Shown piece by piece: positions 3,449 through 22,746 of a DNA stretch of 22,746 bases (positions are counted from its first letter, which is position 1; every line of letters starts with the position of its first letter). Source of the DNA: a virus; IMG/VR virus record IMGVR_UViG_3300005265_000474, positions 1-22,746 of that record; one strand, written 5' to 3'. Under the pieces are notes generated by a model. It made no database searches and was not told where the DNA came from. It saw only the letters and a list, made by a program, of their open reading frames with translations. A program made the position numbers and the translations under genes.

Positions 3449-5398
3449 TTAACAACAGTCTTTTTTACAGTTACATTCTTCCTCTTTTATTTTTTCTTTT
3501 TGTTGTGTGTTTTTAATAACAAGTTCTGTTACAGTTTTACAATTTAAATATACTACTTTTTTATTTTTAACTTTAGTATCAATTGTAACATTCTTTTCAA
3601 TACAATTATTAATAATATAATCAGACAAAGAATCTGATACAAGAGTTTCAACGGTCCTTCTTATCTCTCTAGCTCCATAAGTTTCAGAATATCCTTCATT
3701 TAAAATAAGATTTTTTACAGATTTTGAAAAATTTACAAAAATGTTTCTATTTTTAAGATATTTATTAAGTTTATTCAATTCTATATCAACAATTTTAGAA
3801 CAATTTTTTCTATCTATATCATTAAAATAAACAATTCCTGTAAGTCTATTCAAAAATTCAGGCTTAAATATTCTTTTTATAGCATTTTTTATTGCAATAT
3901 TTTTTCTTTTATTTGTTATTTTATTAACTTCACCAAAACCTATTGTTTTTTCTATATTTTGAACAGCATCAGCTCCAATATTAGAAGTCATCAAAATAAG
4001 AGTATCTTTAAAAGATACAACTTCTCCCTGGTTATCCGTTAATCTTCCCTCATCCATTATCTGAAGCATTAATTGGTGAACCTTTTCACTAGCTTTTTCT
4101 ACCTCATCAAACAAAACAACCGAAAAGGGGTTTTCAAGAACAGCATTAGTCAAAATACCGCCTTCATCAGATCTAACATAACCAGCCGGGCTTCCTATCA
4201 ACTTAGAATATTCATGATCAGAAGAATACTCAGAGCAATCTATTCTAACAAAACCACCACCCGCTTCACTTTTAAAAAAATCGTTTGATAAAGTTTTTGC
4301 TAGTAATGTTTTTCCTACACCTGTCTTTCCAGCAAAAAGAAAAGACCCAATAGGGCAAGCTGGATCTTTTATTCCAACACGTGCTCTTTTTAAAGTTTTT
4401 GTTATAATACTAATTGCTTCTTTTTGTCCTATTACTGATTTGCAAAGTTTATCTTCTAAACCTAGTATTTTTTCAGGTGAAATATCTTTTAAAGCTTTAT
4501 AGTCTGTTTTAGCTACTACTTTTTTACTTGCAGACTTGGCTCTATTTGTTTTTTTACGTAATTTGTCATACTTTATATCTGGATTAATACTAATGCATAA
4601 TTCGTAAAGTTCATCAATCATTTGTTGAGGTGTAAATTTTGTTGACAAACCAAACCTATCTATAAGAGCAAGAACAGATTCAACATCTTTTATAAGAGAT
4701 GTTATAATAAATGTTTTATAGGAATCTTCGTTATCATAATCTCCAAGTGTAATTACTTTATCAATATTTTCTTTTGAAAATTTTCTAATAATTATATACA
4801 TGGTGAGTCTATCCCACCATTTCTTTACAAGATCATGTTTTACTTTTTTTACATTTTCTATTGTTTTTAATATATTGTCGTCTAATTTTTGTTTTTCCTT
4901 TATAGTTTTCTCGTCTTTATCAATAGAATCGCTTTCAGAACCAACGATATCGTCAAGAATTTTATCATCAAAAGAAAAACCATCAGTAGAAATATTTTCT
5001 TTCTGGCCCTTATTCCACATTGGATTTTCTACAAAGGGGTACCCATCTATAGTACCATCATCAATCCTAAGAATACCAAATGGATCTACAATTAAACCTT
5101 CTGGATCTAATAAAGGATTGGTTTCATATAATCTAGATAAAAGTGTTTTTCTAAAATCATTAAAATCTGATATTAAATTTTTATTTGAATTTATATAATA
5201 TAAAAGTTGACCTATATTAATAATATAAACAGATAATATATAATCTTCATAATATGTTTTTGATATTAAACCTTTTTCTTTTGAAAATAAAGCAAGCTCA
5301 GATTCAATATCTTTTTTATTATCCATTTTTAAAATTCTGATAGACATTCCAATAAGATCAAAAGGTACTTGTATTACTTCATATTTTATATCATTCAT
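3449..5398 (-). CDS. ClpA/ClpB-type AAA+ unfoldase, single AAA module, phage form
   Basis: The C-terminal half (about residues 305-600) is a Clp/Hsp100 D2-type AAA+ domain: Walker A GKTGVGKT (357-364), Walker B VVLFDE (427-432), sensor 1 TSN (471-473), arginine finger in FLNRL (R518) and sensor 2 GAR (575-577). Between sensor 1 and the arginine finger is IGF (486-488), the position at which ClpA carries its IGL ClpP-docking loop. The first 300 residues match no Clp N-domain I know and contain an acidic linker (150-185); the first AAA module of ClpA is absent. The tail is Cys-rich (CNCKKDCC). No peptidase lies beside it, so if it unfolds proteins for degradation it would need host ClpP. A good AGGAG precedes ATG 5398, directly after repeat copy A, whose internal promoter probably transcribes it. 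Confidence 0.85.
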   Translation of the reverse strand: MNDIKYEVIQVPFDLIGMSIRILKMDNKKDIESELALFSKEKGLISKTYYEDYILSVYIINIGQLLYYINSNKNLISDFNDFRKTLLSRLYETNPLLDPEGLIVDPFGILRIDDGTIDGYPFVENPMWNKGQKENISTDGFSFDDKILDDIVGSESDSIDKDEKTIKEKQKLDDNILKTIENVKKVKHDLVKKWWDRLTMYIIIRKFSKENIDKVITLGDYDNEDSYKTFIITSLIKDVESVLALIDRFGLSTKFTPQQMIDELYELCISINPDIKYDKLRKKTNRAKSASKKVVAKTDYKALKDISPEKILGLEDKLCKSVIGQKEAISIITKTLKRARVGIKDPACPIGSFLFAGKTGVGKTLLAKTLSNDFFKSEAGGGFVRIDCSEYSSDHEYSKLIGSPAGYVRSDEGGILTNAVLENPFSVVLFDEVEKASEKVHQLMLQIMDEGRLTDNQGEVVSFKDTLILMTSNIGADAVQNIEKTIGFGEVNKITNKRKNIAIKNAIKRIFKPEFLNRLTGIVYFNDIDRKNCSKIVDIELNKLNKYLKNRNIFVNFSKSVKNLILNEGYSETYGAREIRRTVETLVSDSLSDYIINNCIEKNVTIDTKVKNKKVVYLNCKTVTELVIKNTQQKEKIKEEECNCKKDCC

Positions 5399-5426
5399 TT
5401 ATTGTAAAATTCTCCTATGGCATATT

Positions 5427-5596
5427 CCAAGGGCTAAAGCGCCTTGGTTTCTTGGCCTTCAACAGCGGATGCAACCGAAGTTGTCTTACTTCCACCTAAA
5501 CCTACAGTCGATATCCCGACTGTTAAAACATTTCAAAAACAGAGTTGAAATTGAAAACACAGTTTTTCATTCCTGTCGAATTCTATCAACTCGTGC
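5427..5596 (-). ncRNA. predicted ~170-nt structured RNA from repeat A
   Basis: Starting at the predicted +1 (5596), the transcript would fold as follows. GAGTTGA (5592-5586) pairs with TCAACTC (5548-5542), enclosing a TGAAAAAC/GTTTTCA hairpin. Then comes a perfect ACAGTCG/CGACTGT hairpin, a CAAC-UUCG-GUUG tetraloop hairpin and a final CCAAGG/CCTTGG hairpin. The first stem begins 4 nt after the predicted start, which supports both. By analogy with TnpB systems it may be an omegaRNA-like right-end RNA. It could also act only as a 5' leader of the ClpA-like mRNA. Confidence 0.5.
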
Positions 5597-5606
5597 TATT
5601 AGTTTA

Positions 5607-5623
5607 TGCAATTAACATGCCAA
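5607..5623 (-). promoter_or_regulatory. sigma54-type promoter inside repeat A
   Basis: TGGCATGTTAATTGCAT on the minus strand has GG and GC ten bases apart and lies within TTTGGCAT…TTGCATAA, the extended consensus seen at other sites. It points toward the structured RNA and the ClpA-like gene. It overlaps the end of the Rad52-like coding frame. Confidence 0.65.
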
Positions 5624-6265
5624 ATATTGTCGCCTCGTACCATGATTTGTTGTTTCTTCAATATCCTCTTCTTTATCTTCTTTTTTAACAGATGTTTTTA
5701 CTCTAGTAGCTATTTTTTCTTTCTTCTCTGCTAGTTTCTTTTTAAGGTCTAATACTTTTTCTTTACTTGTTGTTTTTATCTCCTTTTCTGTTTGTGGATT
5801 TGTTTCTTTTTCTGGTCTTTCTGTTTTAATAAAATCTGAAACTTGAACATACTCACCACTATTTGGATCTTTTACGACATCTAATTGTGTATTACTAATA
5901 CCAAGCTGTTTAGCACAAGCTTTAATAGCATCAGTAACAGCATTGTTATAAGAATCTCCCAAATTAATAATTTTTCCTTTATTAGGACCACTACTATATT
6001 TCTGTATAATTGCGGAACCAAAAGCCTCTTTAACTATTCTTTCATTATTGTCTAATTCAGCTACTAATCTTAACTGCAAGAGGACAATTTCATCTCCAAC
6101 TACCTCTGATTTAATAATTTCTGTATTCCAAAGAGCGCCAAAAGCCTCATTAAGTCTACTTCTTATAGCGCTGGCAGGCACATAAGGATAATTTGTTTTA
6201 GGTAAAATTCTAGTTTCTATTTCTTTATTTAATGTTTCAAGTAATTCTTTGTTTTTTTGTGCCAT
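5612..6265 (-). CDS. Rad52/Rad22-family single-strand annealing protein, 3' end replaced by repeat
   Basis: Residues 20-125 match the Rad52-type annealing core: YPYVPASAIRSRLNEAFG, WNTEIIKSEVVGDEIVLLQ, a Gly-Ser segment EAFGSAIIQKY and GDSYNNAVTDAIKACAKQLG. Such proteins anneal complementary single strands bound by SSB and drive phage recombination and replication restart. Residues 145-205 are a charged Lys/Glu-rich tail, expected to be disordered and often used for SSB contact. The last seven residues, RRQYLAC, are encoded by repeat A, so the native C-terminus was replaced, though the core is intact. ATG 6265 has AGGAG 7 nt upstream. A sigma54-type promoter and, further upstream, a sigma70 promoter precede it. 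Confidence 0.8.
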   Translation of the reverse strand: MAQKNKELLETLNKEIETRILPKTNYPYVPASAIRSRLNEAFGALWNTEIIKSEVVGDEIVLLQLRLVAELDNNERIVKEAFGSAIIQKYSSGPNKGKIINLGDSYNNAVTDAIKACAKQLGISNTQLDVVKDPNSGEYVQVSDFIKTERPEKETNPQTEKEIKTTSKEKVLDLKKKLAEKKEKIATRVKTSVKKEDKEEDIEETTNHGTRRQYLAC

Positions 6266-6557: not shown

Positions 6558-6883
6558 TGGTGGAGGTGGCGGGAATCGAACCCGCGTCTTACCAAGCAAA
6601 ACAAATCTCGATATACAGCCATATTTCAAATCAATAAAAATAAAAATAATACAAAAAAAATTAAAAAATTGTTACTAAAACAGTCGAATTCTGTTTCTAG
6701 GTTTCGACTAAACCCAATCAGCCTAAACTGAAAGTGCTACTTTTTCCACTCTTGAAAGAGCGTTAACATAGCTTGACATAGTTGTGTCAATTATTTTTTG
6801 ATACGTTTTTTTAAGTTGGCCAAGTACCATCCAACTAGCTGCGTTATTTGCCCCGTCTTAGCAATCGAAGCCTGTTCACCCCC
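6558..6883 (-). ncRNA. ssrA: tmRNA (ssrA), 326 nt, CCA encoded
   Basis: The 5' end GGGGGTG pairs with CACCTCC before a discriminator A and encoded CCA. The third pair is G-U, the alanine identity element. The T-arm region GCGGGTTCGATTCCCGC is canonical. A PK1-type pseudoknot is visible (AGTTGG 6836-6831 with CCAACT 6819-6814; GGTAC 6828-6824 with GTATC 6804-6800). It is followed 11 nt later by GAC, in frame with TAG at 6725-6723. The tag ORF (6788-6723) has 21 codons, starting DTTMSSYVNA and ending EKVALSV; with the charged Ala the tag is 22 residues. A second H-type pseudoknot follows (6714-6682). The tag ends in LSV, not the LAA recognised by ClpXP. tmRNA rescues stalled ribosomes; phage-encoded copies with divergent tags are known. 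A sigma54-type promoter ends just upstream. Confidence 0.95.
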
Positions 6884-7509: not shown

Positions 7510-7725
7510 CTAAAGCCTTTTTAATTTTATAGGTGTTGAGATAACACCGCCTTGACTTCCATTATATAAATGTACTTTGTTAATGTTTTCCTTTTTGTTT
7601 TTATCTTTTTCTGTTTTACAAAATTTTACAGGATCATTAAATAAAACAGAACACCCATTGCATTTGAATATTTCATCCAAAACCATAGAGTACGAATTAC
7701 TCCCACATATAGGACATACAAACAT
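7510..7725 (-). CDS. small zinc-ribbon protein (71 aa)
   Basis: An N-terminal CPIC (residues 4-7) and CNGC (22-25) form a compact zinc ribbon; the rest is a Lys/Asn-rich tail ending in a basic KLKRL. Function unknown; phage zinc ribbons of this size are common. Start ATG 7725 has GGAAAAA upstream. It immediately follows the TnpB fragment, so its present 5' region, including the RE-like hairpin at 7748-7767, may derive from that insertion. Confidence 0.65.
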   Translation of the reverse strand: MFVCPICGSNSYSMVLDEIFKCNGCSVLFNDPVKFCKTEKDKNKKENINKVHLYNGSQGGVISTPIKLKRL

Positions 7726-7747
7726 AATCTATTTTTCCGATGCTTTT

Positions 7748-7855
7748 TTGTTAACTCGCGTTAACAAATGCACCACTCTCCTTTTTCAGAGTGATGGGGG
7801 CATCTCCCAAAACTCGCAATAAAATGTTGCGAGTGCCATTAATGTCTCTATCGAT
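7748..7855 (-). pseudogene. TnpB (IS200/IS605-family) C-terminal fragment
   Basis: In a frame shifted from the cold-shock gene the minus strand reads [15 protein letters not shown], then LGDAPITL and a tail ending FVNAS and TAA (7753-7751). D-R-D-x-N-[GA]-[TA]-R-N-I is the strongly conserved TnpB/RuvC-III block, so this is the last ~35 codons of a TnpB whose front is absent. The stop codon lies in a perfect hairpin, TTGTTAAC/GTTAACAA with loop GCGA, as in IS605 right ends. The left boundary coincides with the break in the cold-shock gene. TnpB is an RNA-guided nuclease of these transposons; only debris remains here. Confidence 0.75.
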
Positions 7856-7967
7856 CTTGTTTACCAATAATTGCAGAATAATGTACAAAAACATCTTTAC
7901 CGTCTTCACCAGTAATAAAACCGTGGCCTTTCTTACAATTAAACCATTTAACTCTTCCTCTAGCCAT
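7848..7967 (-). pseudogene. cold-shock (CspA-family) protein truncated at 39 aa
   Basis: ATG 7967 has AGGAG 6 nt upstream. The product starts [20 protein letters not shown] and continues to DVFVHYSAI, so both RNA-binding motifs are present: RNP1-like KGHGFI, with His instead of the usual Phe, and RNP2 VFVHY. Normal CspA proteins are about 66-70 residues with five strands. Here the frame ends after IGKQDR because it runs into the TnpB fragment, losing the last two strands. It may be non-functional, or it may make a short peptide with retained initiation signals. Cold-shock domain proteins act as RNA chaperones. Confidence 0.75.
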
Positions 7968-8033
7968 TTTAAACTCCTAAAAATATAAAATCTATAATTA
8001 TACTACACCTATACTATTAAATAAATCAGCCAG

Positions 8034-8384
8034 TTAATCTGTTACAGCTGTTGAATGTATATTACCAAGTGTTCCTGTAAACGGATGAGCTTCATCTTTC
8101 ATTGTTTCGTTTAATATTCTTTGTGTTTCTTCCTTTATTATAGCCTTTTTTCTTTTACTACCGCGTAAAAAATACCAATCAGGTCTTTTATATTTTTTAA
8201 TATTAGTGCCTTTATTGATTTCTTTATCTATTTTCTCATTATCAGGAATAAAATACTCACACTTGCGTTTTGATCTAGCTTTTAATCTTATTTTACGCTT
8301 ATTACATATAGAAGTTTCATTATCATAATTATTGCACCATGCACATTTTATAGTTTTATTTTTATAGTCTACTTCTTTTTCCAT
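8034..8384 (-). CDS. Cys-rich basic protein of unknown function (116 aa)
   Basis: The N-terminal third contains CAWC (14-17), then CNKR and CEYF, consistent with a four-Cys zinc-binding knuckle. The middle and C-terminal parts are Lys/Arg-rich (WYFLRGSKRKKAIIKEE). This layout suggests a nucleic-acid-binding phage protein, but no family is recognised. Its ATG at 8384 lies 3 bp after the stop of the nuclease gene at 8388, so the two are probably translated together. It is followed by the truncated cold-shock gene after a 66-bp gap. Confidence 0.6.
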   Translation of the reverse strand: MEKEVDYKNKTIKCAWCNNYDNETSICNKRKIRLKARSKRKCEYFIPDNEKIDKEINKGTNIKKYKRPDWYFLRGSKRKKAIIKEETQRILNETMKDEAHPFTGTLGNIHSTAVTD

Positions 8385-8387
8385 TAT

Positions 8388-8750
8388 TTAAAGTCTCACT
8401 TTTTCAAGTATTTTAAAAAATGCATTTGCATCTAATATTACTACTGGGTCTTTATGGTTTCTTTTTGCAATTACAAGCCAATCAGTTCCCTTTGCCTGGT
8501 TTGTTTTAGCCTGTTCAATCCACCTATGAATATTCCAATGTTCTTGATTCTTACATTCTATTGATAATTTAAGTCTTTTCTTTGCAGAAGCAACAAGACG
8601 AATATCTACACCAGATTGGCCACTTTCACGTGAAGCAATTTGCTCATCAACACCCCATGGTATACCTAATAAGTTAGATATTTTTTCACATACCCATTTT
8701 TGTAAGCGTTGGCCTTTTTGTAGTTTTGCTTTTCTAGTTTTAGCAACCAC
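8388..8750 (-). CDS. PD-(D/E)XK nuclease, resolvase-like (120 aa)
   Basis: The core reads SGQSGVDIRL followed by LSIECKNQEHWNIHRWIEQA. The Asp in GVDI and the Glu and Lys in ECK form the D…ExK catalytic set of restriction-like and Holliday-junction-resolvase-type nucleases. An upstream Glu in ASRESGQSG could be the fourth ligand. The N-terminus is very basic, as expected for DNA binding. I choose GTG 8750 because GGAG lies 6 nt upstream, inside a hairpin-derived sequence; a TTG at 8762 would place the ribosome-binding site within the gene. It probably processes recombination or replication intermediates together with the annealing protein; the exact substrate is not evident. Confidence 0.75.
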   Translation of the reverse strand: MVAKTRKAKLQKGQRLQKWVCEKISNLLGIPWGVDEQIASRESGQSGVDIRLVASAKKRLKLSIECKNQEHWNIHRWIEQAKTNQAKGTDWLVIAKRNHKDPVVILDANAFFKILEKVRL

Positions 8751-8779
8751 GACATACTCCAAAGGTTAAAGCACTTTAA
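8751..8779 (-). other. diverged copy of the repeat's terminal hairpin
   Basis: On the minus strand TTAAAG…CTTTGG then AGTATGTC aligns base by base with the 3' hairpin of repeat copy B (CCAAGG…CCTTGG then AGTATGTC). All differences are transitions and keep pairing (G-C to A-U, C-G to U-G), while the loop core GCTTTA is identical. The GGAG in this segment serves the nuclease gene that starts at 8750. The rest of the 219-bp repeat is not present here. Confidence 0.6.
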
Positions 8780-8802
8780 ATTTACGGTGATTTTTTTGAT
8801 AA

Positions 8803-9231
8803 TTATTCTTCGACATCTTCTATATCATCAACACAAATATTGTCTTGCCACAAACCATAACGTTCAATAATTTCTTTAAACTCCTCAAAATCATGTGGAA
8901 TAGTTTTATAAACAGGGTTGCCGTGTTTATCTTCTCCAACAAAACAATGACACAATTCATGATCAATCAGAGCTTTCTTTTCTTGTTCAGCCATTGTATC
9001 CCAAGTATTTTCATAAATGGAAATAATAAAATCAATATTAGTTAAATAATTAAACTTAGGAGAAACAGCTTCAGCAGTTCCTAAGATAATTTTTCCACAA
9101 CGTTTCCTCGGTTTGTTATAAAACAAACATTTGATTTTTACATTACGCAAATTTAAATGATACTCATTTATCAACTCATTCATTAGTGTGTAAACTTCTT
9201 CGCCGCATTCTCTAAAAGAGATCTTACTCAT
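8803..9231 (-). CDS. phage-type zinc metallopeptidase domain protein (142 aa)
   Basis: HELCHC at residues 91-96 supplies the HExxH zinc-peptidase motif, and H113 in PHDFEEF is a likely third ligand. The preceding part has strands followed by the helix AEQEKKALIDHE typical of putative phage metallopeptidases. These short domains occur widely in phage early gene clusters with no proven substrate; they may cleave host factors or be structural relics. The start overlaps the end of the gene at 9224 by 8 bp, so the two are co-translated. The C-terminus is very acidic (DDIEDVEE). Confidence 0.75.
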   Translation of the reverse strand: MSKISFRECGEEVYTLMNELINEYHLNLRNVKIKCLFYNKPRKRCGKIILGTAEAVSPKFNYLTNIDFIISIYENTWDTMAEQEKKALIDHELCHCFVGEDKHGNPVYKTIPHDFEEFKEIIERYGLWQDNICVDDIEDVEE

Positions 9232-9559
9232 TTTCTTTCACTCCTGTTTCTTTTTGTATTATCTTAAGGTACATGGCTATAACATCCTCAAAACCATTTA
9301 ACGGAGGAAACACCTTAATAACATTCACCAAGCTCAGTGTTTCATTTGTTATTTTTTGAATCATAGGAAACCCGTAGGGAATAACATAAAACCCAAACTT
9401 AGTTTCCTTGTCTTGTTCAATTTCTTTTGGAACAATAAGAGCTACATCGTGTATTAATTCATCTGTCATACTTACCTTTCCGACAACAAGTTCACCAGTC
9501 ACTAGTTTACATACACTGATATCGTGATTATGTGCGTCTTTAGCAAATGTACAATTCAT
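9224..9559 (-). CDS. Sm-like-fold phage protein (111 aa)
   Basis: The segment CKLVTGELVVGKVS followed by DVALIVPKEIEQ resembles the bent-strand Sm1 motif of Sm/LSm-like phage proteins, in which a conserved glycine in L-x-T/D-G-E follows the first strand. The middle FYVIPYGFPMIQ would be a further strand. RNA binding is therefore possible but not shown. A GGGGG tract lies upstream of ATG 9559. The 3' end overlaps the metallopeptidase gene, indicating a tight operon. Alternative: an uncharacterised small beta-barrel protein. Confidence 0.45.
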   Translation of the reverse strand: MNCTFAKDAHNHDISVCKLVTGELVVGKVSMTDELIHDVALIVPKEIEQDKETKFGFYVIPYGFPMIQKITNETLSLVNVIKVFPPLNGFEDVIAMYLKIIQKETGVKENE

Positions 9560-9574
9560 AACATCATTCCCCCA

Positions 9575-9787
9575 TTATAATTTAATTTTTATTATTCCTT
9601 TTAATCCTTTATTCAAATTTATTGTTGCTTCTTTTGGAAACATTTCATTTCCACATTTTGGACAAATCTTAGTAGTAGAAGGTGCATAATAAGCACGTTC
9701 TACAGTCCTGTCTTGATTATTACATTTTTTGCAACAATATCTCCAAAGTTTAAGATTTGTTTCTTCTTTATATTTATTTTCTTTCAT
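9575..9787 (-). CDS. small zinc-ribbon protein (70 aa)
   Basis: CCKKC (residues 18-22) and CPKCG (42-46) form a zinc ribbon; the C-terminal part is basic (INLNKGLKGIIKIKL). It lies between dUTPase and the Sm-like gene in the same run, with a 22-bp gap upstream. No specific role can be assigned. It is one of at least three intact zinc-ribbon genes in the window. Confidence 0.65.
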   Translation of the reverse strand: MKENKYKEETNLKLWRYCCKKCNNQDRTVERAYYAPSTTKICPKCGNEMFPKEATINLNKGLKGIIKIKL

Positions 9788-9809
9788 TTTAATCTATCCC
9801 ACTAAATAT

Positions 9810-10262
9810 TTATAAACCGGTCGAGCCTAATTTTCCATCCCCGCGTTTTGTCTCATCTATAAAATCAACTTCTACTGGAACAAAATGTATAATTGGTCTA
9901 AATATTATTTGAACATATTTACCTGGTAATTTTAAATCAGGACCTTCTACGTCATATTTGAACATCGCCGCTAACAAAGTACCTCTATAGCCACTATCAA
10001 TTACCCCAAATCCGTTGGCTAATAAATGTCCTGTTTTTGATAAACTTGATCTCGCTACTAAATCTACATAGTATCCTTTCGGGGGACTAATAATAACTCC
10101 CGAATCATATAATGAAACTTCACCAAAAGAACCGCTTTTTATAACCTTACTTTTTTTTATTAATGTAATATCATAACCAGTATCTGTATCATAAGCCAAC
10201 GTTGGAGGTACAGCTCCTTCCCCAACAAGCTTATAATTAAAACAAAGCGTGCTAAAATTCAT
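9810..10262 (-). CDS. dut: dUTP diphosphatase (trimeric dUTPase)
   Basis: All five motifs of the homotrimeric dUTPase family are visible in order: DTGYDI (27-32), ARSSLSKTG (70-78), GVIDSGYRG (86-94) with the catalytic Asp and uracil-binding Tyr, KYVQIIFRP (115-123), and RGDGKLGSTG (140-149), the glycine-rich flexible lid that covers the nucleotide. Length 150 aa is typical. It hydrolyses dUTP to dUMP, lowering uracil incorporation and supplying dUMP for dTMP synthesis. It lies directly downstream of the DNA polymerase, separated by 23 bp, so expression with replication genes is expected. Confidence 0.95.
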   Translation of the reverse strand: MNFSTLCFNYKLVGEGAVPPTLAYDTDTGYDITLIKKSKVIKSGSFGEVSLYDSGVIISPPKGYYVDLVARSSLSKTGHLLANGFGVIDSGYRGTLLAAMFKYDVEGPDLKLPGKYVQIIFRPIIHFVPVEVDFIDETKRGDGKLGSTGL

Positions 10263-10285
10263 AACTCAAATCTCCATTTCTATTT

Positions 10286-13200
10286 TTATTTACTCCAACA
10301 AAAATCTACAGTAGAATCTGCTACCATTGGTACTTCCGTAAAAAAAGAATCCCAAGCATCAATAATAGATTTGCTAAGAATTTGTGATACTTCTTTTGTT
10401 TGATTTTCTTTTGTTTCTACCACAATTTCATCATGAATATTAAGAACAACAGAAGCGTCGTAACTACCTGTTTTTATATTTTTGTTCAAATTAATAATCG
10501 ACTGTTTTAACACATCGGCGTTACTATTAGAAACTTTAAACCCATTTGCTACATACCTATGCGGCTCATCGGGACTAACAAAATCATAAGTATCTTCTAT
10601 TCCAACATATTTAACGGATTTAACTACATCATAAAACTCAGATTCTGGCATTCGTGTATACATATTTAATCCGAAACCGTATTCATTTATAAAACTACCA
10701 ACATTAGTTATAAAATCATTTATAACAGATAGCTGAGCTTCTCCATTATTGCCAACCTCTTTAAAAGATATTATTCCAAGCGAAAGTAAAAGCTGTTGTA
10801 TAGTAAAAGCTATAATATCATTAGAACATAAAATAAACAGACCTTCTTTATCATTACTACTTCTTGCTCTACACCCAAGAAAACCAGAAACAAAAGCTTC
10901 TCTAATTTCAACAGGAGAATTTAAAATGTCAGACATGTGTCTTATTTTATTTTTTTTATTATATAGCATATTATATAACAATTTCTTTACATTTTCACTA
11001 AAACTTATAAAGATTTTTGATCCTTTATTAATAAATTTTATTGGACACCTTTTTCTAATATTTCCAGATTTTACAAAGTATTTAATACAACAACTATTCA
11101 ACTTTTCAATTAAAACTCTATTTTTTATATAAAATAATTTTTGTCTACTTTCAAAATACCCACTATCATACAAACAACCCAATATAAAAGCAAGCTCCTT
11201 AGTTATATAATAATTTCTCGTTTCTACTTTAAATCTTTTTATAATATTTTCTATACTTATAGGAAATCCTTCATATTTATTTGCATACATCTTAACAGAT
11301 TTTCCTAAAGATTCCCCAAGAGCACACATGTTATTGCCGGAGTATTTACCATTTTTAACTGATATAGGGTGTTCAAAAGTCCCAGTCAAAGTAAATCCCA
11401 TATTTGTAACTATTTTATATACTTTTTGTTTCCCAGAATATTTACCAAAAGCTCTTATAGTTTTTCCTTTATCACAAAAAAGAATACGCTGCTTACCTAC
11501 ATTATTTTTTATTAAACCGGCACCAAAAACATTAGTGTTAGCACCCAGACAGCCTTGCACACCAGTATTCTTTCCACAACGTCTTATATGATTTAATATA
11601 TTTTTTCTTTCATCATCATTAACTTCCGATCCAGGAAAATTATAATATCGTCTTCTTCCAGATATGGTAACACTATACCCTTTGTTGATAGCCTTTTCTG
11701 CAGCCCCATCTAAGTAACTTTTTACTCTAGGATAAGCTCTAAAATAGTCATTAATAAACTTTTCGGCTTCATCTTCAGAGATACCCAAACGCTCTGCCAG
11801 CCCATATTTTGACATGCCATAACAATTATGTACAACAAAACCATTAGCTAAAAATAACTCTCTATTCTCAACAGATATATCATAAACAGGTTTAACTCCT
11901 TTGCTTTTTATTGAAACTATTGGGAGCGTAATTATATTATTATCATAAATAAATTTAAAAAAATCATCATATTTACTAAAATTTTTTAAATGTGTGTTAT
12001 TAATATGATTTAATCTTATATCTTTGGACAATAAATATTTAATAGTTTTACAAGGCTTAATATTTTTCAATCTATTACTTTGGTTATTAATATTATAAAA
12101 AGGCATAGTACAGCTTATTGAACTAAAACATCTGTTATTTTTATAATTTGTAACAAATCCTATTTGCTTCATAAACAACTGTCTAGAATTATCAGATACT
12201 ATACTCAAATCATAAAACTTTTTTCCTGGATACCTTTTATCATAATGATATGTTATAGAACTGATTATATTCATATTTAACAGTAATAATTGTAGATCCT
12301 TTACTAATACATAAGATGTACTAGCATATCTTATTCTAACACCGTTTTGATTACTTGCAATAGATCCATCCCCCTCAAAAGCCCATCTGATAAAGGATGT
12401 TTGTATATTTTTGGGACTCTTTTTTATACAATCTGGTATATGTATAATAAGTGTTTTATTACTTTCTAAATTAAATAAACTTTTTACCCACGCCGCAAGC
12501 AAAGAAGATGAAATTTTATATTCTGCACATCTTCCTTTATTACTAACAGATAGCCTGTCTCCAAACAGCAAGTAAAGAAGATTATATACACTATCTAATA
12601 TTTCTGATTCATTTTTAGAAAACTTAAATTCAACCGACCAAGAATAATTTTTACCTTTCCTTACAGGCATACTTCCCTCAGCAACGAACAGCCCCAAAAA
12701 AGCTGCCCAATTCTCATCTAAAACTTTTGGTAAGTCAAGATGTTTATAATTACTATTTTTCTTAACAGAAAATTTATCAAACCTATACATCTCATTCGCA
12801 AACAAGTTAGACCCGGCTTTAAGACAAGCTTGATCTACATCTATATCTACATCTTTAAGTGTCTTATCTACATAATTACCATCACTGTTTATTACTTTAA
12901 TTGGATGATCTTCTGTAACTTCTAAAGTATAGCCGTACTTCGTTTTAATTTCGAATACTTCTTTTTTTCCTCTATATTGTTTATCTATTATTTTATCTTT
13001 GCCTATATCATGCGCTACAACATCATTAATATTAGAATTTTTTATTTCCTTCATTCCTTTGTTTGTGAAAATTATTGAATTACTACAAATACATAAGCCA
13101 AAATTCAGCGCTTTGGTATGTTTTCTATAATCTTTTTTAGCCGGATCGTCGTCTGGAAGATTTTTATCAGCAATAATTTCTTCTTCTGTTAAACCAAATA

Positions 13201-14425
13201 CGTCACAAGCCGTAGCAACATGTATATCACCGCCTTTTTTATATGTTTCAATAAAAACAGGATCTTTAGATAAACAAGCTAATATACGAAGTTCTGCTTG
13301 AGACATATCACTAGTAACCATCTTATATCCCGGTTTTGCTATAAAACAAGATCTAAAAGATTTTTGTCCAGGCATTTGTTGAAGGTTTGGATTACTACAG
13401 CTAAGTCTTCCAGTACGTACCATTTGTGTATATGAGGGGTGCAATCTTCCTGTTTTTGGATTTATTTTTTTAAGTATATTCTCACCAAAACTATTTAAAA
13501 GTTTTTCTAATTGTCTGTATTTAAGTAATAACGGAATTACTGGATGTGCCAACTTAACTTTATGTAAGGAACTAACGGAAGTATCTTTTAGTTGTAAACC
13601 CATATTTTTCAAACAAGTAAGCAGTTGAGAAGTACTAGATAAATTTATAGCGGGGGTTCCAAACAAACCGCGTTGTCTTATTCCAGGCTCCAACGCTGGT
13701 AAAATAGCATTAACAACAGCATCTAAATCACGCTTTGTTTCAGCCATCATGGTTCTCCAATTTTCTTTATCTAACAACACACCTACCAGCTCCATATTAG
13801 CCATGCACGGAGCAAATTCAAATTCTAATTTACATACTCTGTTAAGTTTATTACTTTCTATAGCTGGAGCTTGGGCCTTAACTATTCCAAACAAACATGC
13901 TGCATCATGAGCAGCATACTGTATTTGTCTGTTCGTTAGTTCACCAGTAATTCCACCAACAAAATCTTTTGCAACATCTTTTTCAATATTATAATTTAAA
14001 TATTTATAAACCAAACTCTCAAGATTAGCAGAAGAATTAAGCCCAAGAGTAAGACACCTCTCAGCTAACATAGTATCATATATTCTACTTATTTCTATAT
14101 TATATCCTTGCTTAATCATCTTATAATCATATATAGAATTTTGAAGTATATGTAAAAAACGAGTATCTTCTAAAATAGTTTTAAATAATTCAAAAGGTAT
14201 ATATCTAATATCATATACAAATACTTTACCATTTGGTAAAGCTAGCTGTAACAAAAGAACTTTATCTTCAAAAGGATCTAAACCCGTTGCTTCAATATCA
14301 ACACCAACAGCATTAAATTTATCAAAATACTCAAACGTTTTAAAAGCGTCTTCTACTGTATTTATATATCTATAATCTAATTTAAAAGGTAAATTATAAA
14401 AGGTTGTATCAACAGAATTAAACAT
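10286..14425 (-). CDS. family A DNA polymerase with two inteins
   Basis: After removal of both inteins the extein is 614 residues: a 3'-5' exonuclease plus polymerase, with no 5' nuclease. Exo motifs are DIEATG (43-48), NSIYDYKM (96-103) and YAAHDA (170-175). Polymerase motif A is SDMSQAELR (372-380) with catalytic Asp373. Motif B is KALNFGL joined to CYGMS after splicing (438-444 and 868-872). Motif C is HDE (1331-1333). Intein 1 (445-867) splits motif B; intein 2 (959-1300) splits the following conserved GVQG-SNADVLKQ segment, so the enzyme cannot be active before splicing. The gene overlaps the clamp-loader stop codon by 8 bp and precedes dUTPase. It is the replicative polymerase of this genome. 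Confidence 0.97.
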   Translation of the reverse strand: MFNSVDTTFYNLPFKLDYRYINTVEDAFKTFEYFDKFNAVGVDIEATGLDPFEDKVLLLQLALPNGKVFVYDIRYIPFELFKTILEDTRFLHILQNSIYDYKMIKQGYNIEISRIYDTMLAERCLTLGLNSSANLESLVYKYLNYNIEKDVAKDFVGGITGELTNRQIQYAAHDAACLFGIVKAQAPAIESNKLNRVCKLEFEFAPCMANMELVGVLLDKENWRTMMAETKRDLDAVVNAILPALEPGIRQRGLFGTPAINLSSTSQLLTCLKNMGLQLKDTSVSSLHKVKLAHPVIPLLLKYRQLEKLLNSFGENILKKINPKTGRLHPSYTQMVRTGRLSCSNPNLQQMPGQKSFRSCFIAKPGYKMVTSDMSQAELRILACLSKDPVFIETYKKGGDIHVATACDVFGLTEEEIIADKNLPDDDPAKKDYRKHTKALNFGLCICSNSIIFTNKGMKEIKNSNINDVVAHDIGKDKIIDKQYRGKKEVFEIKTKYGYTLEVTEDHPIKVINSDGNYVDKTLKDVDIDVDQACLKAGSNLFANEMYRFDKFSVKKNSNYKHLDLPKVLDENWAAFLGLFVAEGSMPVRKGKNYSWSVEFKFSKNESEILDSVYNLLYLLFGDRLSVSNKGRCAEYKISSSLLAAWVKSLFNLESNKTLIIHIPDCIKKSPKNIQTSFIRWAFEGDGSIASNQNGVRIRYASTSYVLVKDLQLLLLNMNIISSITYHYDKRYPGKKFYDLSIVSDNSRQLFMKQIGFVTNYKNNRCFSSISCTMPFYNINNQSNRLKNIKPCKTIKYLLSKDIRLNHINNTHLKNFSKYDDFFKFIYDNNIITLPIVSIKSKGVKPVYDISVENRELFLANGFVVHNCYGMSKYGLAERLGISEDEAEKFINDYFRAYPRVKSYLDGAAEKAINKGYSVTISGRRRYYNFPGSEVNDDERKNILNHIRRCGKNTGVQGCLGANTNVFGAGLIKNNVGKQRILFCDKGKTIRAFGKYSGKQKVYKIVTNMGFTLTGTFEHPISVKNGKYSGNNMCALGESLGKSVKMYANKYEGFPISIENIIKRFKVETRNYYITKELAFILGCLYDSGYFESRQKLFYIKNRVLIEKLNSCCIKYFVKSGNIRKRCPIKFINKGSKIFISFSENVKKLLYNMLYNKKNKIRHMSDILNSPVEIREAFVSGFLGCRARSSNDKEGLFILCSNDIIAFTIQQLLLSLGIISFKEVGNNGEAQLSVINDFITNVGSFINEYGFGLNMYTRMPESEFYDVVKSVKYVGIEDTYDFVSPDEPHRYVANGFKVSNSNADVLKQSIINLNKNIKTGSYDASVVLNIHDEIVVETKENQTKEVSQILSKSIIDAWDSFFTEVPMVADSTVDFCWSK
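10526..11551 (-). other. intein 2 of DNA polymerase (342 aa), degenerate endonuclease
   Basis: It starts at Cys959 (CLGANTNVFGAG) and ends VANGFKVSN before Ser1301, so splicing would use Cys1 and Ser+1. Block B is TGTFEHPI. The penultimate residue is Ser instead of the usual His, a variation seen in some working inteins. A central region resembles a LAGLIDADG endonuclease. Its first motif is ILGCLYDSGYF, but the second, FVSGFLGCRARS, has lost the acidic residue, so DNA cleavage is probably lost. The joined extein reads TGVQG-SNADVLK, the expected sequence. Confidence 0.9.
11825..13093 (-). other. intein 1 of DNA polymerase (423 aa) with LAGLIDADG endonuclease
   Basis: It starts at Cys445 (CICSNSIIFTNKG) and ends NGFVVHN before Cys868, a canonical HN/C junction. 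Block B is TEDHPI. The homing-endonuclease motifs GLFVAEGS (578-585) and WAFEGDGS (681-688) both keep an acidic residue, so the nuclease may be active. Insertion interrupts polymerase motif B (O-helix) between Leu444 and Cys868, a highly conserved target that favours homing into related phages. Confidence 0.95.
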
Positions 14426-15341: not shown

Positions 15342-15373
15342 TTTTTCAAAACCCCAACTATCTATGACATACT

Positions 15374-15542
15374 CCAAGGGCTAAAGCGCCTTGGTTTCTT
15401 GGCCTTCAACAGCGGATGCAACCGAAGTTGTCTTACTTCAACCTAAACCTACAGTCGATATCCCGACTGTTAAAACGTTCTAAAACAGAGTTGAAATTGA
15501 AAACACAGTTTTTCATTCCTGTCGAATTCTATCAACTCGTGC
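15374..15542 (-). ncRNA. predicted structured RNA from repeat B
   Basis: It has the same stems as the copy at 5427-5596. Substitutions between the two fall in single-stranded or loop positions as far as I can place them, so the fold is kept. It would form the 5' leader of the clamp-loader/polymerase transcript or be processed from it. Confidence 0.45.
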
Positions 15543-15552
15543 TATTAGTTTA

Positions 15553-15569
15553 TGCAATTAACATGCCAA
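15553..15569 (-). promoter_or_regulatory. sigma54-type promoter inside repeat B
   Basis: TGGCATGTTAATTGCAT, identical to the copy A site, is oriented toward the clamp-loader and polymerase genes, with predicted start near 15542. No other promoter is obvious between the KdsC-like remnant and the replication operon. Confidence 0.6.
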
Positions 15570-15917
15570 ATATTGTCGCCTCGTAGGCAAATCTAACAAG
15601 TCATCCCCAACGTAAATACATTCATCGGGCATTGTACTTCTTTCTCTTAATATTTGTTTTAACATTTTCTTTTTATTTTTTGAACAATAAAATTTAAATC
15701 CTTTTTTCTTAAACACGCCTCTATTTATATGTTCTTCGCTAGACAAAATAATGATATTAAAAAATTCACGAAGCTTAGATAAAGATTTAAAATCTTTATC
15801 TAAAAAATTTTTCGATATAATACTTCCATCGCATTTATAAGCACCTTTACCGTCGGTAAACACGCCATCAACACTTAAAACTATTAATTTTATATTTGAA
15901 TATTTTGTTTTATCCAT
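15558..15917 (-). pseudogene. KdsC-like HAD phosphatase remnant, truncated by repeat B
   Basis: IKLIVLSVDGVFTDG (9-23) and YVGDDLLDLP (102-111) are motifs I and IV of the HAD C0 family of KDO-8-phosphate phosphatases. Motif I should be DVDG, with the first Asp as nucleophile; here it is Ser15, so phosphatase activity is not expected. The protein stops at 119 residues, against about 170-180 for the family, because repeat B supplies the last residues RRQYLAC and a stop. It may be a dead gene or have been recruited for another role. A complete copy would act in KDO or related sugar synthesis, in keeping with the glycan genes upstream. Confidence 0.75.
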
Positions 15918-17631: not shown

Positions 17632-17648
17632 TGCAATAATTATGCCAC
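17632..17648 (-). promoter_or_regulatory. sigma54-type promoter of the nuclease/lysis block
   Basis: TGGCATAATTATTGCAT on the minus strand fits every conserved position of the -24/-12 consensus, with GG-N10-GC. It overlaps the last codons of the glycosyltransferase gene at 17640 and faces the exported nuclease, lysozyme and holin-like genes. Predicted start is near 17621. Confidence 0.65.
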
Positions 17649-18542
17649 ATTCTTTTTTAAAAAATCAAGAATACCGGCAACTCTAAAAGATACATCATGC
17701 TCTTTTTTACACCTGTTAGCTGCATTTACTCCTATTTCTGTTAACAGGTCTGCATTTTTTAAATAATAATTTAATTTTTCTTTTAAATCTTTTTTGTTTT
17801 TATATGTTAAAATTTCTTTATCTTTTTCAAATACTTTAAAAACCTCATCTCTTTCTCTTGTTATAACCGGAGTAGCACAGGCTGAATACTCAAACATTCT
17901 ATGTGCTAAAGGTGAAAAAAAATCCTGTATATCTAAACCTATTTTACTTCTGTTAATTACATTAAGAAATTCACTACCTGTTATTGCTTTATGTGTATAA
18001 CTTGCACTAAACCATCCCGAACCGTAAACCTGTAAATTACAACTTACAGTGTTATTTATATCTTTAACTATTTCAAGGCGTTCCTTTTTATTCTTAAATC
18101 TTGGATGTAAACCACACCCGATTAAAGAAACATCTATATCTTTTTTTAAATATAAATTTTTGTGATACTTAAAATCACAAGCTGTTTGATTATAGTGTAC
18201 TGGTATTACTGTTTTATACTTTTCAAAAGTCTCATAATGATTTGTTACATAAACGTCATAACTTTTAAATCTTTCCGAAGAAAAATAATAAGGATCACTA
18301 AAACCAAAACCAATAATTGGAATTTTAATTTGTTTTTTAATACCATAAGGAAGTACTAAACCAGAATGAGATAACCAAATTTGATCTGGGTTCAATCTAT
18401 CAATTAAATTTAAAACACTTATAATTTTACTTTTATCTACCCAAATAATATCATATCCCTTATTTTTGACTTCTTCATATATAGATCTCTTTGTACCATA
18501 AGTATTAAAGGTGTATTTATCAGTAAAATATAATATTTTCAT
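17640..18542 (-). CDS. CgeB-like glycosyltransferase (300 aa)
   Basis: The N-terminus [20 protein letters not shown] and the C-terminal block [25 protein letters not shown], followed by a [16 protein letters not shown] region, are typical of GT-B glycosyltransferases with a CgeB/Glyco_trans_1_2-type C-terminal domain that binds a nucleotide sugar. The acceptor is unknown. ATG 18542 is chosen because AGGAG is 7 nt upstream and the codon overlaps the acetyltransferase stop (ATGA); 13 extra in-frame codons upstream are not needed. It is the last gene of the glycan cassette and its 3' end contains the lysis-block promoter. Confidence 0.8.
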
Positions 18543-19024
18543 ACACGTTCTCCTATTTTCCTTACTGGATTCCCTGCCCAAATTCCATAATCAGGAATAT
18601 TTTTTGTAACAACGCTTCCGGCCCCTATAACACACCCATTTCCTATTTTAACACCACCACACACAACAGTATTTGCACCGATCCACACGTCACTACCTAT
18701 TATAACATGTTTTGGTATATTTTTTTGTTTCATTATAAGTTGATTAATTGCTACTCCATGATCTTGTGCATATATATGAACATTTGGACTAAATAAAACA
18801 TTGTCTCCTATTTCTATTCCTCCCATACCGTGCATAACACAATAATAACCTATACTTACGTTATTACCTATGTTTATTATTCCTGTACAGGTTCTTATAA
18901 CACAATTATGCATTATTCTTACATTGTTACCAAGTATTATTTTCCCACCGTGTTCTTTAAAACCAACATAAGCATCAGGTGATATATTACAGTTATTGCC
19001 TTGAATTAAATTTGCCGTAATCAT
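18539..19024 (-). CDS. hexapeptide-repeat acetyltransferase (161 aa)
   Basis: The protein is a left-handed beta-helix of [LIV]-G-x4 repeats ([68 protein letters not shown]). It ends with the xxAGNPxRxI signature of the sugar O-acetyltransferase (maltose/WcaF-type) group. AQDHG contains the probable catalytic His. It transfers an acetyl group from acetyl-CoA to a sugar. Stop and start codons overlap with the flanking methyltransferase and glycosyltransferase genes, showing tight co-expression. Confidence 0.9.
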
Positions 19025-19716
19025 TTTTTTATGTATAAATTCTCATCTATTTTTTTAAATAATTTGTTTAAAATAGTAACGCCTTCTTTTTTCCATAAAC
19101 TTATCGAATGTGCAAAATGTCCAGATGATGGTTTAATTTTTCTACTCACCTCTAAAAATAATTTACCATTTTGTTTAATAGATAAGCATATCCTTTCAAA
19201 TTCCTTTAAGGGGTTATAAACATGTTCTAATACATCTGAACAAATAATTACATCATATTTGTTTTTTGGTAATACAGAATCATGATAAAACACATTGACT
19301 TTAAATCCACGTTTTTTAATTCTTGCTCTAGCAAATTTTAATAGCGGACCTTTCACATCAAGAATATCTACATCATTTCCATTTTCCAACAAAGCAATAG
19401 CGTGTGTACCAACGCCGCTTCCAAAATCCAAACACTCTTTGTTTGACGTATCATTTATTAGTTTTTTAAGCGTCGCTCCTCTACGCATCACACTTGTAAA
19501 CATCATAGTTTTTAAATATGCATCCAAATCTAAATAATTATATTCTTGATACAAAGATAAGAAATCTTTCTCTGTCTCAATAACCCCTTTTTCATTAAAT
19601 ATTCTAATAGAATCTGGTGTACAAATACTAAGTTGTTGTATATAATTCAAGGGTTTATTTAATATTTCCGCCAATTCTAAATCCCTCTCTTTTTGTGTTT
19701 CTTTTAATATGGCCAT
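19021..19716 (-). CDS. class I SAM-dependent methyltransferase (231 aa)
   Basis: Motif [13 protein letters not shown], followed by [14 protein letters not shown], and the acidic loop [13 protein letters not shown] are the SAM-binding signatures of class I methyltransferases. A Lys-rich 80-residue N-terminal extension has no recognisable domain. LEHV and the downstream LFLEVSRK fit small-molecule or sugar methyltransferases better than DNA methylases (no NPPY/DPPY is present). It probably modifies a glycan made by the neighbouring enzymes. Its ATG follows AGGATAAATA, and its stop overlaps the acetyltransferase start (ATGA). Confidence 0.85.
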
Positions 19717-19719
19717 TAT

Positions 19720-20994
19720 TTATCCTTTATTAACTTTACCTGTAGCTTGTATCCACTTTCTAAAATATTCAGATTCTTCTTGAAATTCTTCAAGACTTCT
19801 ATCTCTAATTTTAATGAGGGGTTTTAATTTATTAACACCATCTGGACCAAAAAAATAAAAATTATAATCATTAAGATCTCTACTAAGAATTTCTATATTA
19901 TACTTCAATGGGTTATACCATACATCACATCCTGGAATTGGAACAAAAGAAGTACATGCAATAATATCATAAGGCACTTCCTGTAAATATTTAATATTAA
20001 TAGGTACGGTGTGTTTTGTTTGACCGGGCGTTCTTATCATAAATAATATTCTTGTTTTTAAACCAACCTTAGCACATATTTCTAACGCCCTGACATTATC
20101 TTTTGCGGTAGTTTTCTTGTTTAATATTTTTAAAACATTATCATCAAAACTTTCAACACCAAAAGAAGCCTCAACACATCCAGCATCATACATAATTTTA
20201 GCCATATCTTCATCAAATGGGTTTACTCTACAAGATATTCGCCATACAACATCAAGACTTTTAATTTTTTTACACACACTTTCAACATGTTGGCGACTCG
20301 CCGTAAACATGTCGTCTGAAAACCTAAATTGTGTTATTCCAAAATTATCTATCACTTCACGCATTTCATCATATATTGATTGGGCAGTTCTATATCTTAC
20401 TTTTCTATATGTGAATTTAGAAGCACAACAAAAAGCACAAGAAAAAGGACAGCCCCTTGAAGTCAAAATTATTGTACTACCACCCTCACGATAGTTTTTA
20501 TTAAAGATAAAAATATTTCCGCCTTGAAAATCTAATAAATGTCTTGCTGGTAAAGGAATAGTATTAAGATCTTTTACAGGTTCCCCCTGATAAACTTGTT
20601 GTAATTTGTTTTTCTTTATATCCTTAATAATATTTAAAATAGTTATTTCTCCCTCACCCACACAAATAGAATCTACTACTTTAAAATCTACAAACTCTTT
20701 CGATATAGTACCTGGACCACCAAGAACTACTTTGGCATTGGGATATTTAATTTTTATCAATTTTGAAAACTCATTAGCAACAGGTAACTCAAGACAGGTA
20801 GTTGTTATTCCATACATATCTGCTTCAGAAAGATCTTCTATGGCTGTTTTCTTAGAATAAGAAGAATAATTTTTTATCTCTACGTCTATATCGTTTTGTT
20901 CTAATACTGCAGCCAAATACATTAACCCTAAAGGCGCTTGCGCATCGGGTTGGTTTAAAAAATCATGTGGTAAATAAATAAAAACTACTTTCAT
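19720..20994 (-). CDS. radical SAM protein with B12-binding-like N-terminal domain (424 aa)
   Basis: Residues 1-140 form the Rossmann-like domain of B12-binding radical SAM proteins (PLGLMYLAAVLEQNDIDVEI, VVLGGPGTI, VGEGE), although the cobalamin-ligand motif DxHxxG is not evident. CPFSCAFC (Cys182, 186, 189) is the radical SAM CxxxCxxC for the 4Fe-4S cluster. The rest is a TIM-barrel (FRFSDDMFTA, WRISCRVNP, ASFGVES). Such enzymes do methyl transfer or rearrangements in natural-product and glycan pathways. Here it sits among sugar-modifying genes; substrate unknown. GAGG precedes ATG 20994, overlapping the end of the pyruvyl transferase gene. Confidence 0.9.
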   Translation of the reverse strand: MKVVFIYLPHDFLNQPDAQAPLGLMYLAAVLEQNDIDVEIKNYSSYSKKTAIEDLSEADMYGITTTCLELPVANEFSKLIKIKYPNAKVVLGGPGTISKEFVDFKVVDSICVGEGEITILNIIKDIKKNKLQQVYQGEPVKDLNTIPLPARHLLDFQGGNIFIFNKNYREGGSTIILTSRGCPFSCAFCCASKFTYRKVRYRTAQSIYDEMREVIDNFGITQFRFSDDMFTASRQHVESVCKKIKSLDVVWRISCRVNPFDEDMAKIMYDAGCVEASFGVESFDDNVLKILNKKTTAKDNVRALEICAKVGLKTRILFMIRTPGQTKHTVPINIKYLQEVPYDIIACTSFVPIPGCDVWYNPLKYNIEILSRDLNDYNFYFFGPDGVNKLKPLIKIRDRSLEEFQEESEYFRKWIQATGKVNKG

Positions 20995-20997
20995 GTT

Positions 20998-21768
20998 TTA
21001 CCTCGCTACTTTTTTAAAAGGACAAACATTATACAATCTATCTATATCTATATCAAGAACATAATCTTTAAATTTATCATAAACCTGTTGTAATGTAGTA
21101 TTTTCATTAATCACTAGTGGTAACTTTTCTTCTCTGTGTACAGACTCAAAGTAATCTCTAAATTTAAAACCATTACCCTTTACCTTAGAAGACAATTCAA
21201 TCCATATTGAGGGTATATTATAAGCATCAGAGACTATGATACCGTGTAAAGAACTCGACGCTATTAACTCACAACTACAAACTTTATCAACAAAAACATT
21301 AATATCTTCCTGAATATCTATAATTAAAATATCAGAAATTCCTCTAAATTTATTTAAAAATTCAGAATTTTTATCTATAAAATGAGGAATAACCCCCAAT
21401 TTATATTTTTTCTTAACACTAACAGGTGTATAAAATCTCGGATAAAGTAAAACTGGATCACCATAAACGTTACAAGTATACCCCTGCTCTTTTAATTTTT
21501 TAATAGTAAGTGGCCCCCTTACTGCGTAAATTTCCTTTGGTTTATATATAATTTTACTCGATTCTGTAATAAAACCAGGCCCCCATATAATAGAATAAGG
21601 ATCTGCTCTTTGAAGAATACTGCCAACTATTAAATAAACATCTTTTTTTTCAATGTTTTCAAAAGACATACCTACAGCTTTAGGTTTAATTCCTGATATG
21701 CATTCAAATAAAATAGGACCTATTTTGTCCCCCCAATTATTTAATTTACTATGATGTTTAACAAACAT
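20998..21768 (-). CDS. polysaccharide pyruvyl transferase family protein (256 aa)
   Basis: Family marks are NNWGDKIGPILFE near the start, IVGSIL, IWGPGF, AVRGPLT followed by YGDPVLLYPRF, and LIASSSLHGIIVSDAYNIPSIWIE. These match the CsaB/WcaK-type pyruvyl transferase family, which adds ketal-linked pyruvate to sugars of exopolysaccharide or cell-wall glycans using phosphoenolpyruvate. Length is on the short side (about 300 is usual). The ribosome-binding site before ATG 21768 is weak. It is part of the glycan cassette and would add negative charge to surface sugar. Confidence 0.85.
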   Translation of the reverse strand: MFVKHHSKLNNWGDKIGPILFECISGIKPKAVGMSFENIEKKDVYLIVGSILQRADPYSIIWGPGFITESSKIIYKPKEIYAVRGPLTIKKLKEQGYTCNVYGDPVLLYPRFYTPVSVKKKYKLGVIPHFIDKNSEFLNKFRGISDILIIDIQEDINVFVDKVCSCELIASSSLHGIIVSDAYNIPSIWIELSSKVKGNGFKFRDYFESVHREEKLPLVINENTTLQQVYDKFKDYVLDIDIDRLYNVCPFKKVAR

Positions 21769-21801
21769 TTCTATGTGTTATATCTTTATTTTATTTTTTT
21801 T

Positions 21802-22434: not shown

Positions 22435-22746
22435 TACATCTGCTCAATACATTTAATAAATTTTTGCATATTTGTCTTTCTATTTCCTATTTTATTAACA
22501 ATAAGTTTTTGCATATTATTAATTAACGACCAATCAGGATTTTCTATCAATTTTACTGCATTATCTAAATTACCAAATTTATATATCATAGCTGTATCAC
22601 CAAAGGCATAATCTAATACCATACCATTTGTCTTTATGTTATTACAAACAATTAAACAACCACATAATGCAGCCTCCATTGCTACATTAAAAAGACCTTC
22701 AAGTTCAGTAGGGGCAAACCATATGTGACATGAACTGTACAAATCA
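22434..22746 (-). CDS. glycosyltransferase family 1 C-terminal part (incomplete at window edge)
   Basis: The frame is open to the right edge, so the N-terminus is missing. SSCHIWFAPTELEGLFNVA followed by MEAALCGCLIVCNN is the signature of GT-B group 1 transferases (…EGLP-x-A-x-EAxACG), with Glu residues that bind the nucleotide sugar. The tail is helical and basic. Probably a 340-400-residue protein of which about 104 residues are visible. It starts the minus-strand glycan cassette as seen here. Confidence 0.85.
   Translation of the reverse strand, partial: DLYSSCHIWFAPTELEGLFNVAMEAALCGCLIVCNNIKTNGMVLDYAFGDTAMIYKFGNLDNAVKLIENPDWSLINNMQKLIVNKIGNRKTNMQKFIKCIEQM

Follow-up and report, generated by a model that had tools for sequence, protein, structure and literature searches.

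The window analysed here, a linear viral fragment of 22,746 bases (IMG/VR class) with about 29% G+C, comes from a virus of bacteria, i.e. a phage. The earlier note had read a phage tmRNA in it and proposed a covariance-model search as a check; cmscan bore this reading out with a full-length match to the tmRNA model RF00023 (model positions 1-374) at 6883..6558 on the minus strand, scoring 101 bits (gathering score 47, E 9e-39). It is the sole RNA family above threshold in the window. The tmRNA gene, its parts and two neighboring protein genes are arranged as follows:

6558..6883, minus strand: one-piece tmRNA (ssrA) gene, 326 nt, Rfam RF00023, with the 5' end at 6883 and the CCA end at 6558
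6558-6561, minus strand: ACCA, the CCA being encoded in the gene (from sequence)
6562..6568, minus strand: 3' strand of the acceptor stem, CACCUCC, pairing with GGGGGUG at 6883-6877 (from sequence)
6569..6585, minus strand: T arm GCGGG-UUCGAUU-CCCGC (sequence and Rfam alignment)
6788-6726, minus strand: tag frame DTTMSSYVNALSRVEKVALSV, 21 codons, resume codon GAC at 6788-6786 and stop UAG at 6725-6723
6800..6835, minus strand: pseudoknot PK1, with S1 GUUGG/CCAAC and S2 GGUAC/GUAUC (pair check in the window and seven relatives)
5612..6265, minus strand: Rad52-like annealing protein gene (Pfam Rad52_Rad22, 5e-6), between the tmRNA and the unfoldase gene
3449..5398, minus strand: ClpA/B-D2-type AAA+ unfoldase gene, 649 aa (Pfam AAA_2 2e-50, ClpB_D2-small 2e-18)
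4499..5398, minus strand: unfoldase N-terminal domain, residues 1-300, two tandem copies (AlphaFold2 pLDDT 72)
4175..4183, minus strand: putative pore-1 loop G-Y-V, residues 406-408
3935..3943, minus strand: IGF tripeptide, residues 486-488, a putative ClpP-docking loop within KTIGFG

The tmRNA strand starts with GGGGGUGAACAGGCUUCGAU and terminates with GCGGGUUCGAUUCCCGCCACCUCCACCA. Its 7-bp acceptor stem GGGGGUG/CACCUCC retains a G3-U pair as in alanine tmRNAs, where this pair is the alanine identity element. The 3' end of PK1 lies at tmRNA nucleotide 84, upstream of the resume codon, and its stems are altered yet still paired in L039, L040, L051, L052, L053, L054 and L055 (L-numbers denote viral loci or records). 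Posterior values in the Rfam alignment are low between the tag and the 3' domain (PK2-4 region). ARAGORN reported no tmRNA gene in the window, and pipelines that depend on it would therefore overlook this one. A remnant of a prophage attachment site was rejected as an explanation, the gene being full length.

The resume codon GAC is located 11 nt past PK1, at tmRNA nucleotide 96 (window position 6788), so that, as expected of a tmRNA, PK1 precedes the resume codon by about 11-12 nt and an open tag frame runs to a stop. The tag described in the earlier note (6723-6788, GAC 11 nt after PK1, 21 codons, end ALSV) agrees with ours in every particular, and the gene lies on the minus strand. The resulting 21-residue peptide DTTMSSYVNALSRVEKVALSV ends in ALSV and lacks the canonical LAA or AA C-terminus of ssrA tags. 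The tag had also been called long and non-canonical, which holds for its length and its non-LAA end; such a length is not unusual in itself, as tags of 8-35 residues are known (PMC8012679).

The unfoldase resembles the Hsp100 proteins ClpA, ClpC and ClpX in its AAA_2 and ClpB_D2-small domains, GYV pore loop and IGF docking loop, and it carries the broad features of ClpP-partner Hsp100 proteins (Walker motifs, GYV pore loop, IGF/IGL loop and D2-small domain). G406 and Y407 of the pore loop and the whole KTIGFG stretch (484-489) are invariant across 10 relatives. It differs from these proteins in having a single AAA+ module (residues 309-606), and not the two of ClpA, joined to a new duplicated N-terminal domain. 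In the AlphaFold2 model, this domain consists of two units of beta-hairpins plus helices (about residues 5-110 and 186-285), and the two halves align with each other (hhalign prob 94.6, E 7e-8). Residues 1-300 of the window protein match no Pfam or PHROG family, the ClpX N-terminal zinc-binding domain included, and no convincing Pfam or PHROG family was found for the set of relatives. No relatives of the domain were found among 84,980 prokaryote species genomes, and there was no fold match in the PDB. In a viral fold library it matched the AAA protein A0A6J5MDF8 (prob 1.00 but E 0.02) and showed a weak resemblance to tail-assembly chaperones; these weak matches were not relied on. As far as tested, the duplicated N-terminal domain is phage-specific. 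We call phages with this window-type unfoldase group A. The group B unfoldase is ClpC-like, with D1 + D2 and a G[IV]GF loop and without the N-terminal domain. The L040 unfoldase gene (7610-10732) has a 412-residue intein-like insert within its AAA+ module.

Elsewhere in the window, an element of about 225 nt occurs in two copies about 95-99% alike (5415-5639 and 15362-15585, minus strand), with a partial copy at 8751-8777. It is fused to the 3' ends of the unrelated Rad52-like and HAD-like genes, whose proteins both end in TRRQYLAC, and it stops just before the next gene. Its RNA fold is better than those of shuffled sequences (z -2.3), it has no Rfam match, and it is possibly a mobile RNA element. 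The DNA polymerase I gene (10286-14425) contains intein sequence with LAGLIDADG and intein splicing domains, apparently as two inserts in conserved motifs. Genes for glycosyltransferase, hexapeptide transferase, methyltransferase, radical SAM and pyruvyl transferase proteins cluster at 17640-22742 and probably serve surface-sugar modification.

Using the window AAA+ gene (3449-5398) as query, we identified three viral relatives (L039-L041), all of which carry a full tmRNA a few kb upstream of the unfoldase gene in the common order tmRNA-rad52-unfoldase. A profile search yielded 79 more viral loci, and 34 of these records contain a tmRNA above the gathering score; the relatives of the window unfoldase comprise L039-L041 and L051-L067. 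Additional weaker or permuted tmRNAs include the one-piece genes of L062 and the L089 type and the permuted, two-piece tmRNAs of L063 and L064 (RF04321, 91 and 98 bits). Comparison of tags across related phages, another check proposed in the earlier note, revealed a family of 20-31 residues in the unfoldase phages, conserved as peptides. Group A tags share the consensus G-N-S-M-[IL]-D-Y-A-x-x-M-L, retained in both permuted-tmRNA phages, and group B tags resemble GNT[FI]AKLxxxGLxxxEEVxVA. The group A tags are:

L039: NTNMYGYVNSAIKADKVALVANI
L040: GNSIIDYANHMLEGVQLYATV
L041 (unfoldase gene also broken): GKFIINYIHRMINSVQYRAPARACELKQTSK
L051: SNSMITHMADMLDSCPVRHVESLTALAV
L052: NESMLNYAREQLTDGISVVKSMSRYMEAV
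L053: GESMLDYALRQLEGVIELKGNTMTASV
L054: GKSMITYMADMLNSCPVRHSEPLTALAA
L055: CNSILDYACEMLEASKPHSVNGNVMAAI
L062: NNSMMDFAADALEGVELLHNKALAVA
L063 (permuted tmRNA): GTSLMEYATRLHAEELVSEDVEQVAIAA
L064 (permuted tmRNA): GNSLVEYATRLHAKELVSKDVEQVAIAA

A later search, queried with just the N-terminal domain, added a single locus, L271, whose tmRNA (107 bits) lies 1.8 kb upstream of the domain match; its tag GKVKMVDYARGSLNDGISVVKSKSNYLMAA matches the motif in its front half and ends in LMAA. In the tmRNAs of L040 (5571-5937) and L041 (8064-8315), the T loop AGGCAGAG replaces UUCGANU. This loop is not unique to the two, as it is also present in the permuted tmRNAs of L265, L266, L267 and L269. Upstream of the tmRNA in L040 (159-5568) and L041 (2787-8053) lie genes resembling YhbH/SpoVR by eye, those of L041 also PrkA-like; YhbH/SpoVR and PrkA are stress proteins.

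Among 12 related tmRNAs, the mean BLOSUM62 score per residue pair is 1.46 in the tag frame and -0.59 and -0.09 in the other frames. Stops interrupt the tag frame in none of the 12 and the other two frames in 10 and 9, and codon position 3 of the tag is the least conserved. Over the first 13 codons of the group A tags, pairwise identity is 0.49, 0.56 and 0.34 at codon positions 1, 2 and 3. Group B tags score a mean of 2.36 in the tag frame versus 0.30 and -0.01 elsewhere. Judged from these alignments, tags are conserved as peptides in both unfoldase groups, with the frame kept and third positions free, which argues against a frame arising by chance.

The tmRNA and unfoldase genes are also physically linked. 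Their median distance is 3.5 kb in 23 records of at least 40 kb, and they lie within 8 kb of each other in 19 of these 23 (4.7 expected), or in 12/14 when only representatives are counted (2.7 expected). The closeness holds across both unfoldase architectures and in records of 50-240 kb. As a control, we took 50 viral records of at least 37 kb selected through a thyX DNA motif that has no relation to tmRNA or unfoldase; none of them contains an AAA_2 domain. A tmRNA above the cut-off was found in 20/40 unfoldase records of at least 36 kb versus 3/50 controls (Fisher 2e-6), and tags ending in AA make up 10/10 distinct tags without an unfoldase versus 5/29 with one (Fisher 5e-6), both p-values being optimistic as the counts treat related phages, perhaps 3-5 lineages, as independent. 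The ten AA-tag records lack an unfoldase by both AAA_2 and the window-type profile. Tags not ending in AA account for 24/29 distinct tags with an unfoldase and were seen only in unfoldase phages, some of whose tags end in LAA, IAA, VAA or MAA. Genomics thus supports a tmRNA-unfoldase pairing.

The association has exceptions. No tmRNA was detected in half of the larger unfoldase records (at least 36 kb), these records being fragments in which the absence of a gene is weak evidence. Among group A, L056-L061 and L065-L067 keep the N-terminal domain and have no detected tmRNA, and the permuted-tmRNA model found nothing in tmRNA-less unfoldase records besides L063/L064. Public records of five large phages carrying a ClpA/B/C-like gene show a tmRNA in just one, where it is unlinked to that gene; no tmRNA adjoining an unfoldase was found in the largest public phages. 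The 484-kb phage LR756508.1 (L292) has an unlinked tmRNA whose frame we read as a 36-codon tag ending in KPAAV and for which ARAGORN gives another, short tag. Two phages of more than 600 kb carry a GOLLD RNA within 8 kb of a ClpC-like gene (L287, 9535-9940; L288, 6058-6464). CUA-anticodon tRNAs in L056, L057, L058 and L065, which have an unfoldase and no detected tmRNA, suggest amber reassignment.

As for partner proteins, none of 48 phage records yielded SmpB, and host SmpB would therefore be used. ClpP is present in 11 of the 48, four of which also have unfoldase and tmRNA; it was not found in the window fragment. Phage-encoded ClpP can be a prohead protease.

These features are consistent with a phage that runs its own branch of trans-translation. 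The phage tmRNA, presumably charged by host AlaRS and used with host SmpB, would rescue ribosomes stalled during infection and add the long phage-specific tag to unfinished proteins. The tag would then be read by the phage AAA+ unfoldase and not by the host LAA-specific ClpX/SspB route, its conserved front half probably recognised through the duplicated N-terminal domain and its hydrophobic tail probably engaged by the unfoldase pore. The unfoldase would pass the tagged protein to ClpP, which the host would supply in most records and the phage itself in some. We consider such a phage-run tagging-and-degradation route, via host SmpB and mostly host ClpP, reasonably probable. The tmRNA, the tag frame, the peptide conservation, the gene linkage, the association of tag end with unfoldase and the IGF loop are direct observations. 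In Mycoplasma, long altered tags accompanied a switch to Lon, and by analogy we infer that the phage tag may be a private degron recognised by the phage unfoldase plus ClpP. The stricter form, in which the degron is read by the phage unfoldase only, ClpP is taken over, two architectures serve and the tag is kept in permuted tmRNAs, stands at about even chances. The unfoldase may have further substrates.

The linkage could instead reflect shared descent. Both genes would then belong to an ancient takeover block present in a few large-phage lineages, the tag would be read by ordinary host proteases (ClpAP, Lon, FtsH), and the unfoldase would act elsewhere, e.g. in capsid or tail remodelling. The small number of lineages, the commonness of unfoldase genes without a tmRNA and the variable length of host tags (PMC8012679) fit this history. 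Against it, closeness persists across different unfoldase architectures and in records of 50-240 kb, the tag end depends on unfoldase presence, and the tag motif survives the switch to a permuted tmRNA; we regard it as rather unlikely. Another alternative is that ribosomes are recycled and tagged chains persist because the tag is a poor degron, as the earlier note allowed in suggesting proteins released but not degraded. Ends such as ALSV, ATV, ANI and VTVA are indeed expected to suit ClpX poorly, judged from ssrA tags generally. However, a tag unbound by recognition should drift, and the tag residues, N-terminal half included, are conserved in frame over very diverged phages, on which ground an unused, drifting tag was rejected. 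In this phage and its relatives, moreover, a nearby gene encodes an unfoldase with a ClpP-docking loop, and rescue without degradation appears improbable. The note's other suggestion, a different protease, is favoured over no degradation because the tmRNA is linked to such a phage unfoldase gene and only phages having this gene were seen to carry non-AA tags.

The conserved front half would also suit an affinity handle by which the unfoldase or another phage protein draws tagged host or phage proteins into a complex, e.g. to block an mRNA- or tRNA-cutting defence, and the very weak similarity in fold between the N-terminal domain and tail assembly chaperones points the same way. The AAA+ motor is nevertheless complete, with its IGF loop, and short hydrophobic tag ends are typical of degrons, which makes this use quite improbable. 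A spurious tag, with the true resume codon or frame elsewhere, might be suspected from the poor Rfam posterior inside the message part and the silence of ARAGORN; it was rejected on the 11-nt PK1-to-resume spacing and the conserved frame with free third positions, and its chance seems negligible.

The preferred reading, a tag matched to a phage unfoldase, builds on parts already known separately, namely phage tmRNAs (PMC4131195, PMC7162821), long tags (PMC8012679) and phage Clp genes. With bacterial ssrA (E. coli AANDENYALAA), the phage RNA shares the fold, G3-U stem, PK1, resume codon and short message plus stop. Unlike tags read by bacterial ClpXP/ClpAP, its tag has 21 residues, ends in ALSV without LAA, has a GNSM[IL]DYA-type front half and is usually linked to a phage unfoldase gene. 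According to the excerpt of PMC8138137, which reviews Gur and Sauer 2008, Mycoplasma/Mesoplasma likewise have long altered ssrA tags matched to another AAA+ protease, the partner there being their own Lon after ClpXP loss, whereas the candidate here is a virus-encoded ClpP-type unfoldase. The excerpts of PMC4131195, on tmRNAs in Bacillus phage G and mycobacteriophages, and of PMC7162821, on huge phages with tmRNA and SmpB, describe no tag-unfoldase pairing, and the 48 records here differ from those huge phages in lacking SmpB. The SspB analogue of phage pf16 (PMC5587285) is likewise a phage gene aimed at ssrA-Clp delivery, but it is an adaptor, and no tmRNA was found in pf16. No report of a tag-unfoldase pairing was found in the open-access literature.

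Pairing makes direct binding and degradation testable. If true, it would join Mycoplasma as a second example of a tag and its protease changing in step, and would offer a naturally orthogonal degron-protease pair for use as a tool. Phage tmRNAs have long been known, and we know of no clear reason why a virus brings one; an unfoldase-matched tag would give such a reason, namely ribosome rescue during infection together with a disposal route that escapes host recognition and control. The tag-unfoldase pair may thus be a private, virus-run route of protein disposal.
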